Part shown: positions 370-3,518 of the stretch, piece after piece
Layout: each line of letters opens with the position of its first letter
Position numbering within the stretch: the stretch's first letter is position 1
The notes under the pieces: model-generated
Databases searched by the model: none
Told to the model about the DNA's origin: nothing
The model's input: only the letters and a program-made list of their open reading frames with translations
Source of the DNA: an uncultured Spirochaetaceae bacterium
Lineage (GTDB): Bacteria; Spirochaetota; Spirochaetia; Treponematales; Treponemataceae
Direction: 5' to 3'
DNA: 8,107 nt
Assembly (NCBI GenBank): GCA_902766345.1
Contig: CACXDK010000005.1
Location: 1-8,107 of the forward strand
Position numbers and translations under genes: made by a program

Positions 370-1404
370 TTACAGAGTCTTGCCTTCTACTGCTGCATAC
401 TTACCAAGCTTGTCACAGAGAGCTTCAAACTGATCAGGAGTAAGCTGCTGAGAAGCATCGCTCAAAGCCTTTTCAGGATGGCAGTGAACTTCAATTTCAA
501 GACCGTCAGCACCAGCAGCAACAGCAGCCTGAGCAAGAACAGGAACCATCCAGCGAATTCCGCAGGCATGACTAGGATCAATAACAACAGGGAGATGTGA
601 AACCTTATGAAGATAAGGAACAGCACTCAAATCAAGGCAGTTACGTGTGTAAGAATCATAAGTACGAATGCCGCGCTCACAAAGAATAACATTTTCATTG
701 CCATTAGCCATGATATACTCAGCAGACATTAAAAGCTCGCTGATTGTGCCTGAAAGACCTCTCTTTAACAATACAGGCTTTTTAGTCTTTCCAAGTTCTT
801 TAAGAAGATCAAAGTTCTGGAAGTTTCTTGCACCAATCTGAATTAAGTCTACATTTTCAAAATATTTAAGTTCTGAAATAGCCATAAGCTCAGTACAAAT
901 AGGTAGACCTGTCTCTTTTTTAGCAAGTTCCAAAAGCTTAATGCCTTCAACGCCCATTCCCTGAAAACTGTATGGAGAAGTTCTTGGCTTGTAAGCACCG
1001 CCGCGCAAAAGCCTTGCACCAGCTTTTTTTACAGCATGAGCAGCATCCAGAATTTGCTGCTCACTTTCAACAGAACAAGGACCTGCAATAAGAGGAACAG
1101 ATTTTCCGTCACCAATAGAACAAGCTGTAACGCCTGTCTGACCGCCATCAATAGTAATTACAGTATTTTCAGGGTGGAAGGAACGGCTAGCCATCTTATA
1201 CGGAGCAGAAACACGCTCCGCACTTTCTACAACATCATTTGCAAGAAAATCTTCAGGGTCAATTTTTGAAGTATCACCCAAAAGTCCAACGATAGTCTTG
1301 TCAACACCTTTAGAAATGTGAACACCAAAGCCCTTTCCCTGAATTTCATCAAGAAAAGCCTTTACAGACTCATCTCCAGCACCCTTCTTTAAAACCAAAA
1401 TCAT
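370..1404 (-). CDS. aroF: 3-deoxy-7-phosphoheptulonate (DAHP) synthase, type I-beta with ferredoxin-like regulatory domain
   Basis: This cytoplasmic enzyme condenses phosphoenolpyruvate and erythrose 4-phosphate to DAHP, the first step of the shikimate pathway to Tyr, Phe and Trp. The protein has 344 residues, a usual length for the Thermotoga-like I-beta class. Residues 1-70 (MILVLKKGAG onward) form the ferredoxin-like domain, which in family members mediates feedback inhibition by Tyr or Phe. The barrel follows, with AGPCSVE at 107-113, RGGAYKPRTSPYSFQG at 134-149, IGARNFQNFDLL at 190-201, CERGIRTYDSYTRN at 242-255, DPSHACG at 276-282 and EVHCHPEKALSDASQQL from 305. By comparison with the family, C110, H279, E305 and D316 are the likely metal ligands, and all are present. 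The start is ATG 1404 because GGAGGA lies 7 nt upstream; a TTG at 1431 would extend the frame but breaks the family N-terminus. Upstream lies an aromatic-codon attenuator. The symbol aroF is a class name; aroG or aroA(G) is used in some genomes. Confidence 0.95.
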   Translation of the reverse strand: MILVLKKGAGDESVKAFLDEIQGKGFGVHISKGVDKTIVGLLGDTSKIDPEDFLANDVVESAERVSAPYKMASRSFHPENTVITIDGGQTGVTACSIGDGKSVPLIAGPCSVESEQQILDAAHAVKKAGARLLRGGAYKPRTSPYSFQGMGVEGIKLLELAKKETGLPICTELMAISELKYFENVDLIQIGARNFQNFDLLKELGKTKKPVLLKRGLSGTISELLMSAEYIMANGNENVILCERGIRTYDSYTRNCLDLSAVPYLHKVSHLPVVIDPSHACGIRWMVPVLAQAAVAAGADGLEIEVHCHPEKALSDASQQLTPDQFEALCDKLGKYAAVEGKTL

Positions 1405-1411
1405 ACGTCTA

Positions 1412-1417
1412 TCCTCC
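1412..1417 (-). promoter_or_regulatory. Ribosome binding site of aroF
   Basis: GGAGGA on the minus strand lies 7 nt before ATG 1404. This fixes the aroF start and excludes the upstream in-frame TTG at 1431, which would place this site inside the coding region. It sits 25 nt beyond the last U of the attenuator terminator, so aroF is translated only from read-through transcripts. Confidence 0.85.
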
Positions 1418-1442
1418 AGTATGCAAAACAATACAAAATCAT

Positions 1443-1475
1443 AAAAAAAGGGAGCCTTTCATTCGGAAGGCTCCC
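1443..1475 (-). terminator. Attenuator: intrinsic terminator in the aroF leader
   Basis: On the minus strand GGGAGCCTT (1475-1467) and AAGGCTCCC (1458-1450) form a perfect 9-bp stem around an 8-nt loop. Seven U follow directly (1449-1443). This is a textbook rho-independent terminator. It lies inside the transcript leader, upstream of the aroF ribosome binding site and downstream of the aroF promoter, so it must be conditional. The plus strand has no T run after the stem, so it works in one direction only. Confidence 0.9.
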
Positions 1476-1530
1476 TGTAAGCTACTGATTAACCAGCAAC
1501 ACAACACACGCTATTCAGCGAACACTTCCG
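1464..1530 (-). promoter_or_regulatory. Candidate antiterminator pairing in the aroF leader
   Basis: CGGAAG at 1530-1525, inside codons 30-32 of the leader ORF, is the exact complement of CUUCCG at 1469-1464, which belongs to the 5' arm and loop of the terminator. Pairing these six bases would break the inner part of the terminator stem. A second, mutually exclusive partner is GGUUCUC (1546-1540, codons 25-27), which can pair over 7 bp with GGGAGCC (1475-1469) using two G-U pairs. A ribosome finishing at the leader stop codon (1517-1515) would cover CGGAAG and favour the terminator, whereas stalling on the earlier aromatic codons would leave it free. Found by eye; no folding energies were computed. 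Confidence 0.5.
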
Positions 1531-1619
1531 CGACACAATGAGAACCAATAATAGCTAAAGTAAAAGTAAGCCAGCATAGAGAAATTGATAATCTGCGCCC
1601 AACGGGTTGTATTACTCAT
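1515..1619 (-). CDS. aroF leader peptide rich in Tyr/Phe/Trp codons
   Basis: This is a 34-codon frame from ATG 1619 to TGA 1517-1515. Codons 17-27 read AYFYFSYYWFS, so eight of the nine codons from 18 to 26 (1568-1542) are aromatic: four Tyr, three Phe and one Trp. Another Trp is codon 7 and another Phe codon 13. Such density in a short frame between a strong promoter and a terminator-antiterminator is the hallmark of ribosome-mediated attenuation, as in the pheA and trp leaders. The encoded enzyme makes the common precursor of all three amino acids, which fits the mixed codons. No Shine-Dalgarno is visible. The predicted transcript starts about 4 nt before ATG 1619, which suggests near-leaderless initiation. 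An in-frame ATG at 1577 (codon 15) would give a 20-residue peptide but also lacks a ribosome site. Confidence 0.8.
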   Translation of the reverse strand: MSNTTRWAQIINFSMLAYFYFSYYWFSLCRGSVR

Positions 1620-1629
1620 AATTAGTAAG

Positions 1630-1658
1630 ATATTACATTAGTATAATGTTTCTGTCAA
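1630..1658 (-). promoter_or_regulatory. Sigma-70 type promoter for aroF
   Basis: On the minus strand a perfect -35 TTGACA (1658-1653) is separated by 17 nt from -10 TAATAT (1635-1630), one mismatch from consensus. Initiation about 7 nt downstream falls near the A at 1623, which gives a leader RNA of roughly 220 nt before aroF. The DNA upstream of the -35 is rich in A and T runs. This is a strong promoter by sequence, as expected for a gene then controlled by attenuation. Confidence 0.85.
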
Positions 1659-1757: not shown

Positions 1758-3518
1758 ATGTTTTTCGAAAAAAAATCTAACGACAGAATGAGTGCAAAAA
1801 AACTCTTTATTGGAACTCTCATTCCTTTACTTGTCATTACCTTCATGGCAGGAATAATCCTTGCATTTATTTCTAACAAACTTATTGGAAATTATGTTCA
1901 TGCAGAAACTTCAGCAACCATTGAACATCTAAATTCACAAATTTCAGATTACATTTCGCCAGCAGTAACAAATGTTGAAAACTTCTCAAACTTTGCAAAA
2001 TCTGCAGACGGCAATGAAACTCTGCAGAATCTTTGCGAAACCTTTGCACAGAGCCTAACTTACGCACTTTCCTTCTACTATGCAACGGAAGACTTTCATA
2101 CAGGTAAAAATAAAGGGTTTTACGCAGACAGCGACCGTTGGGATCCTCCTGCAGACTGGATTCCAAAACAAAGAGACTGGTTCCGTAACGCAGTAGCAAA
2201 AGACGGTGCAGTTTCATTTGAAGAAGCATATATAGATGCAATGACAAACGAACTGTGCTTTACAATAGCAAAAGCTGTAAAAAACAACAGTGGAAAAATA
2301 AAAGGCGTTGTAGCAAATGATCTTAGACTTTCAAGCCTTGCCAGCATGATTCAGGAAGTACAGATTTCACCAAGAAGTCATATATACCTGCTCAGTAGCG
2401 ATGGGAAATACATGACAAATGATGATGAAACAAAAATCATGAACGTAAACTATTTTGATGATTCAAAAATTCCATATTCACAGCAAGAATATCTTGACGG
2501 TACTCCAAAAACTTTAATTTCAGGCAAAACTTTCTACGCCATAAAACAAATAAACAAAACCCCGTGGTTTATTGCAGTCGAAGGACCAGTTTTGGATTTT
2601 ACAGGAAAAGCAAAAACCACAACCCTCATATTTGAAATCATCCTCATCGCATTCAGCGTATTCTTTGCACTCATAAACATACAGTTCATCATGAAGATGA
2701 TATCTGGGGAAAAATCCTTAGGCGAAAAGATTCTTTCAGAAACACAGGGACTTGCCGCAGCAGCAAAAGAAAATGCCGCAACAGCACAGGATCAGACAGC
2801 CGCCGTAAAAGAAATTGTAGCTACAATGGAAGATGACAACGAGCTTTCTGCAAATATCTCGCGGAAAATAAAAGATGTTGCCAGCGTTGCTGGAAAGACA
2901 AGTGACGATGTTTGTGAAGGAGTAAAATCTATAGAGCAGAATGTATTACAGCTTATGGATATTGCAGCGGCAAATAAAAATACAATAGAAGGCATAAAAA
3001 ATCTCAGTGATAAAATAGAAAACATCTGGGATATAGTCACCCTCATTAACAGTGTTGCGGATCAGGCAAAAATCATAGCATTTAATGCCGAACTTGAAGC
3101 AAGCAGTGCTGGCGAAGCTGGAAAGAACTTCCACATCGTTGCAACTGAAATCCGTCGCCTTGCAGACGGCATCATAGACGGAACAAAAGAAATAAAAGAA
3201 AAGATTGGTGAAATTCAAAAGAGTTCTGACAGTCTTATTATTGCAAGTGAAAGCGGTACAGAAAAAATCAACAACGGAGTTGCCAACGCCAACATTCTAA
3301 AAGAAAGCTTTGAAAGCATAAAGAATGCTTCGGAAATAACAGCTAGCAGTGCAAACGACATTACTAAAATCATTCAGCAGCAGGCAGTTGCCAGTGAACA
3401 GATTCTTGTTACACTCAGACAGATAGCATCTGGTGCTGAAAGCTTTAATGCCGCAACCGAAAACATATCTTCTGCATCACAGAACCTCAGGAACATTGCA
3501 GAAGACTTAAACAAATAA
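1758..3518 (+). CDS. Methyl-accepting chemotaxis protein with dCache sensor domain, no HAMP
   Basis: This is a transmembrane chemoreceptor of 586 residues that would signal through CheW and CheA to the flagellar motor. The first transmembrane segment is about residues 16-39 and the second about 287-312. Between them is a periplasmic domain of some 245 residues with the dCache pattern R139-D-W141-F142, then Y158-I-D160 and D188 in VVANDL. This spacing resembles the dCache amino-acid-binding signature, with F in place of the second aromatic Tyr. No HAMP domain follows the second membrane segment. The coiled-coil signalling domain begins almost at once (about 318-586), with its tip near 424-468 (QAKIIAFNAELEASSAGEAG, 436-455). 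N443, E447 and E453 match conserved tip residues, but the usual Arg of EAAR is Ser450. There is no C-terminal NWETF-type tether. ATG 1758 has GAGGAG 8 nt upstream. It stands alone, divergent from aroF and convergent with the arg operon. Confidence 0.92.
   Translation: MFFEKKSNDRMSAKKLFIGTLIPLLVITFMAGIILAFISNKLIGNYVHAETSATIEHLNSQISDYISPAVTNVENFSNFAKSADGNETLQNLCETFAQSLTYALSFYYATEDFHTGKNKGFYADSDRWDPPADWIPKQRDWFRNAVAKDGAVSFEEAYIDAMTNELCFTIAKAVKNNSGKIKGVVANDLRLSSLASMIQEVQISPRSHIYLLSSDGKYMTNDDETKIMNVNYFDDSKIPYSQQEYLDGTPKTLISGKTFYAIKQINKTPWFIAVEGPVLDFTGKAKTTTLIFEIILIAFSVFFALINIQFIMKMISGEKSLGEKILSETQGLAAAAKENAATAQDQTAAVKEIVATMEDDNELSANISRKIKDVASVAGKTSDDVCEGVKSIEQNVLQLMDIAAANKNTIEGIKNLSDKIENIWDIVTLINSVADQAKIIAFNAELEASSAGEAGKNFHIVATEIRRLADGIIDGTKEIKEKIGEIQKSSDSLIIASESGTEKINNGVANANILKESFESIKNASEITASSANDITKIIQQQAVASEQILVTLRQIASGAESFNAATENISSASQNLRNIAEDLNK

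Follow-up and report, generated by a model that had tools for sequence, protein, structure and literature searches.

The question raised by this locus is whether aroF, the gene for a DAHP synthase in the 8,107-nt stretch of spirochaete DNA analysed here (the window), is controlled by the transcript segment that precedes it, and if so by what kind of switch. A first-pass annotation had described upstream of aroF a near-consensus promoter, a short open reading frame (ORF) in which eight of nine codons in a run are aromatic, a candidate antiterminator arm inside that ORF, a 9-bp terminator stem with seven U and the ribosome site of aroF, and had read them as an attenuator of the classical ribosome-stalling type. 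All of these parts lie on the minus strand where that annotation placed them (Table 1), and the parts, their order, their geometry and their conservation are features of the sequences themselves. Comparison with related loci makes it very likely, in our judgement, that the region acts as a ribosome-mediated transcription attenuator of aroF.

The aroF locus and its upstream region

In profile searches the aroF product matched NF006421 (457.7 bits) as well as TIGR01361, PF00793 and PF18152. Its solved relatives include 4grs, 1rzm and 3pg9, the latter two of which we take to be the Thermotoga maritima enzyme, presumably feedback-inhibited by Tyr and Phe through the ferredoxin-like domain. The closest relatives among the best 80 of 536 are both from Treponema (L001, 95% identity; L010, 99%). 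The gene starts with an ATG at 1404 on the minus strand; the other minus-strand genes of the window are a pallilysin-like gene, argD, argB and argJ. The pallilysin-like gene and the two closest aroF relatives assign the window to Treponema. A chemoreceptor gene (1758-3518, plus strand, ATG at 1758) lies divergent from aroF, so no visible minus-strand upstream gene ends at the aroF terminator.

Table 1. Features of aroF and its upstream region in the window
Feature	Position	Strand	Basis and remarks
aroF, DAHP synthase with N-terminal ferredoxin-like domain	370..1404	-	profile matches
Shine-Dalgarno sequence of aroF, GGAGG	1413..1417	-	sequence
Terminator U-tract, seven U	1442..1448	-	sequence
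Intrinsic terminator stem-loop, AGGGAGCCTT-8-AAGGCTCCCT	1449..1476	-	terminator scan
Antiterminator partner CTTCCG, in terminator 5' arm and loop	1464..1469	-	pairing search; extended duplex 1482-1465
Candidate antiterminator strand CGGAAG, within last ORF codons	1525..1530	-	pairing search; extended duplex 1530-1509, interrupted
Leader ORF, 34 codons and stop, MSNTTRWAQIINFSMLAYFYFSYYWFSLCRGSVR	1515..1619	-	ORF list; relatives
Sensor run YFYFSYYWF (Y18-F26), aromatic codons 8/9	1542..1568	-	translation
Predicted transcription start zone	1619..1625	-	inferred from -10 position; 5' UTR about 0-6 nt
-10 hexamer TAATAT	1630..1635	-	promoter scan
-35 hexamer TTGACA	1653..1658	-	promoter scan

The promoter matches the consensus at 10 of 12 positions, with a spacer of 17 nt between the hexamers. 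Over both strands of 1200-1900, five promoter-like sites were found, compared with 2.0 expected from shuffles, and two terminator-like sites, one of them the aroF terminator, compared with 0.3 expected. The terminator stem comprises 10 bp when the closing A-U pair is counted. The fold of the whole region is weakly better than that of shuffled sequences (z -1.59, with 11 of 200 shuffles equally good).

Conservation of leader and terminator

Among the best 80 of the 536 aroF relatives, 46 are from spirochaetes by title, and a complete aromatic leader ORF precedes aroF at 35 of these 46 loci. In all 36 elements of this first set (the 35 and the window) an intrinsic terminator follows the leader, 23-43 nt past the ORF stop. 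With the finder described below, the leader was not found at 10 of the 46 loci, and at 9 of these 10 the 300 nt before aroF contain no good terminator either. Leader and terminator therefore go together: both are present in 36 cases, the leader alone in none, the terminator alone in one (L038) and neither in nine, leaving out L027, where the core is present and the contig ends before the start codon. The pattern that, according to the first-pass annotation, would speak against an attenuator, namely relatives that keep the hairpin and lose the aromatic codons, was thus confined to that single locus.

The co-occurrence bears on the alternative that the terminator is operated by a separate regulator (a T-box, a riboswitch or an RNA-binding protein) and that the ORF is incidental. 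All regulator-dependent systems of this kind share a terminator placed ahead of the gene and after its promoter, and to this extent the architecture would suit either explanation. However, 36 of the 37 first-set upstream regions that have the terminator also have the aromatic ORF, and a search of the window against Rfam, up to E 1 and including the T-box (RF00230), gave no match. We consider regulation of this kind very improbable.

The elements were also sought with a finder that requires at least 5 F, Y or W among 11 residues within 35 codons of a stop and a terminator 5-70 nt later. It matched 37 of 47 spirochaete aroF upstream regions (the window and L027 included) and none of 192 control windows taken from flanking sequence at the longer spirochaete loci. 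Since the elements are picked for aromatic content, it is these control windows that measure chance, and the aromatic run is not independent evidence beyond them. A survey of the same family covered 60 standalone aroF upstream regions, from 64 rows chosen by frame length among the matches listed, with genomes already in the first set excluded and four rows, two of them at contig edges, left out. Leader and terminator were found at 48 of the 60 and the element was not found at the other 12; because the survey finder demands a terminator, the analysis of co-occurrence is confined to the first set. Four of the 48 have an identical counterpart in the first set, and the 84 elements in total comprise 78 distinct ones.

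A probable leaderless start for the leader ORF

The -10 hexamer of the window ends 10 nt before the ATG of the leader ORF, and no Shine-Dalgarno sequence precedes that ATG. Given this spacing, translation probably starts at a 5'-terminal AUG, that is, the leader ORF is probably leaderless. The geometry recurs among the relatives. The exact hexamer TTGACA is present in 30 of the 36 first-set elements, and when the 150 nt upstream of each aromatic core were scanned in the 78 distinct elements, the mean promoter score was 10.14, compared with 8.13 for shuffled sequences. In 72 of the 78, the first in-frame ATG lies 6-10 nt past the best -10, which is close to the expected start of transcription. 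The six exceptions have spacings of 1 (twice), 4, 28 and 46 nt, or none; both elements with an ATG at 1 nt have a second ATG at 7, and in those with spacings of 4 and 46 a further TTGAC box follows the chosen -10.

Predicted pairing with the anti-Shine-Dalgarno sequence upstream of the leader ATGs averaged -0.17 kcal/mol and reached -5 or better in 2 of 76 leaders, of which 35 are from the first set (start picked by eye) and 41 (of 43) from the survey, the latter with an ATG required 28-42 nt after a TTGAC box, a preselection that favours leaderless ones. At the aroF ATGs, the mean was -8.21 kcal/mol, and all 35 examined reached -5 or better. For contrast, 199 ORFs with 200 or more codons from the same spirochaete loci were taken from the first ATG (true starts may differ). 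Anti-Shine-Dalgarno pairing is strong at 110 of them, and a comparable promoter lies within 100 nt at 37; in 10 of those 37 the ATG is 6-10 nt past the -10, which suggests that leaderless genes may not be unusual in Treponema. An internal start of the leader at codon 15 was considered and rejected: the ATG is absent in many relatives, and no Shine-Dalgarno sequence precedes it in the window.

The aromatic run and the leader peptide

Tyr makes up 43% of the residues in the 11-residue cores of the 78 distinct elements, Phe 19% and Trp 3.5%; 74 cores have three or more Tyr, 64 have Phe and 29 have Trp. By this composition the conserved signals are predicted to be Tyr first and Phe second, with Trp optional. 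The first-pass annotation had named all three amino acids as signals, and Tyr and Phe hold up across the family, whereas Trp occurs in too few cores to be counted with them.

Two further explanations also involve translation of the ORF. According to one, it encodes a small functional hydrophobic peptide whose dosage is tuned by the terminator. The N-terminal NTTRWAQ is well conserved in one clade, and its codons (window 1593-1613, minus strand) are strongly conserved there at the DNA level, often including third positions. However, apart from this shared N-terminus the leader peptides are very different outside the aromatic core, those of the survey included, and the tail of the ORF is constrained by its pairing with the terminator arm (see below). 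The codon usage of leaders at leuA, also described below, weighs in the same direction, and we give a functional peptide very little credence. According to the other, the ribosome is stalled by sequence-specific arrest of the nascent peptide and not by loss of charged tRNA. A motif, [AV]Y-x-Y, does recur in many cores (uncounted), but the order and kind of the aromatic residues vary widely among elements, and arrest of this type appears highly unlikely. We retain sensing of charged tRNA as the preferred reading.

Searched against Pfam and NCBIfam, the leader ORF gave no match. The Tyr codons of 35 leaders are divided into 76 TAT and 66 TAC, and those of the aroF genes at the same loci into 87 TAT and 201 TAC. 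Within the NTTRWAQ region, ACCCGTTGGGC (1607-1597, minus strand) could fold into a hairpin of 3-4 bp.

The antiterminator and the modelled switch

The antiterminator arm proposed inside the ORF is present as CGGAAG, though its helix with the terminator arm has only 6 contiguous Watson-Crick pairs in the window; an interrupted extension gives a duplex of -20.5 kcal/mol. At least 7 contiguous Watson-Crick pairs join the ORF tail to the terminator 5' arm in 44 of the 78 distinct elements, a proportion that falls to 1.5% when the tails are shuffled and to 11.9% when they are set against the divergent arms of other elements; 18 of the 78 have at most 5. The 44 elements use 24 different tail strands (e.g., GCGGAAG, CAGAGTTC, TGGAAGTC and CGCAGGGT), so that, as far as these alignments of tail and arm go, the strand changes in sequence while its complementarity to the terminator arm persists. 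This agrees with the expectation, raised with the original proposal, that relatives would have a conserved leader ORF with covarying terminator and antiterminator. The tail strand ends within the ORF in all 44 and begins 10-15 nt past the last aromatic codon in 36 of them, which would be about the edge of a ribosome stalled there.

Sequestration of the terminator 5' arm was modelled on RNA without the terminator 3' arm. With a ribosome placed at the first, middle or last aromatic codon, mean predicted sequestration over the 78 elements was 0.71, 0.71 and 0.69, respectively, and with the ribosome at the stop codon it was 0.13; in 76 of the 78 elements it was higher at the last aromatic codon than at the stop. 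In the window, the modelled value is 0.79-0.90 up to codon 27, just beyond the aromatic run, then 0.64 at codon 28, 0.30-0.47 at codons 29-33 and 0.11 at the stop. When the terminator 3' arm was included, only 7 of the 78 elements had an aromatic position at which the antiterminator exceeded 0.5, and the window is not one of the 7. Because the antiterminator seldom prevails against the full terminator, the attenuator model needs kinetic control, in which timing decides.

Other tests lend the antiterminator modest support, and the test for contiguous Watson-Crick helices is the clearer one. Shuffling of the tail lowered predicted sequestration only from 0.69 to 0.43, with 12 of the 78 elements above all 30 shuffles, and when the 78 arms were ranked for each tail by duplex energy, the element's own arm had a median rank of 12.5. 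In leaders modelled as untranslated, the arm was still sequestered (mean 0.58 over the 35 first-set leaders; 0.80 in the window; below 0.4 in 9 of the 35), which suggests that a protector hairpin may not be general; in the folding models such a hairpin is not generally evident.

Proposed mechanism

We infer transcription start, translation, stalling, termination and read-through as follows. RNA polymerase would start about at the AUG of the leader, and a ribosome would begin on this 5'-terminal AUG and trail the polymerase. When Tyr-tRNA (and Phe-tRNA) is plentiful, the ribosome would reach the stop codon and cover the last codons of the ORF; CGGAAG would then be unable to pair, the terminator would form and transcription would end near 1442. 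When Tyr-tRNA or Phe-tRNA is scarce, the ribosome would stall within YFYFSYYWF and leave CGGAAG, just ahead of it, free to pair with the emerging terminator 5' arm (CUUCCG), so that the terminator would be pre-empted and aroF transcribed. Such a device would have two states, antiterminator or terminator, and no general protector hairpin, and an untranslated leader should therefore read through.

In the classical enterobacterial trpL and pheL systems, strand 1 pairs with strand 2 and the leader has a Shine-Dalgarno sequence. The window resembles these systems in its regulatory codons, in the predicted competition between antiterminator and terminator and in its U-tract. Unlike them, the Treponema leaders have almost no Shine-Dalgarno sequences and no evident general protector strand. 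As far as attenuation itself is concerned, the classical model proposed at first is well supported by sequence comparison, and it may need amending in these two respects.

Comparison with other phyla and known leaders

Attenuators of aroF are already on record outside the spirochaetes. In Corynebacterium glutamicum aroR-aroF, stalling on the leader peptide is reported to increase aroF operon transcription when Phe is limiting (PMC11802643, PMC7356990). As in the window, a leader peptide lies upstream of a DAHP synthase gene, and the C. glutamicum peptide has Phe-Tyr-Phe. Compared by description, however, that system belongs to a different phylum, and the supply of Tyr is described as irrelevant to it (PMC11802643), whereas the leader in the window has eight aromatic codons and Tyr is the most conserved residue of the Treponema leaders. 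For uORFC-13-1, found upstream of aroF in Acholeplasma and environmental sequences (24 representatives), attenuation has been proposed (PMC8632094). It is likewise described as an upstream ORF with one or more Phe codons immediately ahead of an apparent intrinsic terminator, but the description includes a ribosome-binding site, in contrast to the Treponema leaders with their Tyr/Phe-rich run and no Shine-Dalgarno sequence.

Leader peptides whose ORF begins at the transcript's 5' end or close to it, as those of Treponema seem to, are also reported: trpL of S. meliloti (PMC7298713), the ilvB leader of C. diphtheriae (PMC5784534) and several leaders of S. lividans (PMC8079986). As described there, these are Trp, branched-chain and other leaders of Alphaproteobacteria and Actinobacteria, and none is at aroF or in spirochaetes. 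According to a genome-wide study of 2010, leader-peptide systems had previously been shown only in Proteobacteria and Actinobacteria, to which that study adds a Firmicutes case (PMC2965389); its main text contains no match for spirochaetes or Treponema. A leucine-rich attenuator peptide of Staphylococcus aureus was reported later (PMC5794164), and a leader-gene study of 2016 that includes Spirochaetales is concerned, by its stated topic, with reinitiation at short distances. Among the open-access literature matches listed, in a search that lay outside most subscription papers, none described a leader-peptide attenuator from a spirochaete. The first-pass annotation had been aware of no attenuator described for aroF in spirochaetes, and in this respect we likewise found none in print; attenuation at aroF as such has a reported precedent in Corynebacterium and a proposed one in Acholeplasma.

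The 80 relatives also provided 34 non-spirochaete loci (L046-L080 without L051), of which 32 were tested. An aromatic leader ORF with terminator was found at 16 of these 32 aroF upstream regions, mostly clostridial by title (e.g., L064, L065 and L059). In 15 of the 16, with starts chosen by eye, anti-Shine-Dalgarno pairing averaged -5.76 kcal/mol and was strong (-5 or better) in 13, and the -10 lay 21-55 nt upstream. The same gene thus appears to be preceded by leaders of two kinds, those of clostridia and other Firmicutes, mostly with a Shine-Dalgarno sequence and a normal UTR, and the apparently leaderless ones of Treponema, a contrast that could serve as a natural test of timely ribosome loading for the control of RNA polymerase. 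In an Rfam search of 20 non-spirochaete loci, a T-box stood in place of the leader at L056 (Faecalicoccus) and L071 (Acholeplasmatales).

Leaders at other amino acid genes

Leaders of similar design were found at other biosynthetic genes of the family. In nine family genomes, all nine loci of leuA (2-isopropylmalate synthase; L205-L213; type PRK03739/TIGR00970, two of the nine checked) carry upstream a short leader, in most cases rich in Leu, and a terminator; the chosen leader ATG lies 6-7 nt past the best -10 at each of them. Of 30 further leuA loci (L216-L245, three of them from the first nine genomes and one, L240, almost without upstream sequence), 19 carry a Leu-rich leader, defined by three or more Leu among eight residues, with a terminator, and in 17 of the 19 the ATG is 6-10 nt past the -10. 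These 19 leaders use CTA for 50 of 87 Leu codons, compared with 25 of 1220 in the leuA genes (p = 1.5e-47, a value that overstates independence since leuA sequences are related). Rare codons for the controlled amino acid are not required by the function of a peptide and argue for sensing of charged tRNA, to which the CTA codons at leuA point.

At a paralogue of ilvB, a Val/Leu-rich leader ORF with a terminator was found at three of six loci (L176, L177 and L179), and at hisG an HSHHH leader ORF with a terminator at one of nine (L190); in both groups the ATG lies 7-11 nt past the -10. At L180 and L181 there is no attenuator, and the ilvB paralogue gene starts about 9 nt past a -10, seemingly leaderless itself. 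No matching leader was found at trpE (six loci), the main ilvB (nine), fused aroF-pheA (five) or a separate prephenate dehydratase gene (one), and no Leu-rich leader at the other type of leuA (nine). As a protein query, the 19-aa ilvB leader gave no match in 60 genomes, in a search with no positive control.

We regard the chances as evenly balanced that the Treponema family uses leaderless two-state attenuation generally, at aroF (Tyr/Phe), leuA (Leu, via CTA), the ilvB paralogue (Val/Leu/Ile) and, in some cases, hisG (His). If this is so, a spirochaete family would have leader-peptide switches on several amino acid pathways without Shine-Dalgarno sequences. Ribosome and polymerase would be coupled from the first nucleotide, a protector or pause hairpin would be unneeded, and an untranslated leader would lead to read-through, not to termination.

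In five genomes (L081, L082, L086, L089 and L090), a second DAHP synthase, with no aromatic leader found upstream, occupies a longer frame (581-640 aa). Matches to prephenate dehydratase lie in frames of equal length on the same contigs, and at L081 the fusion was confirmed.
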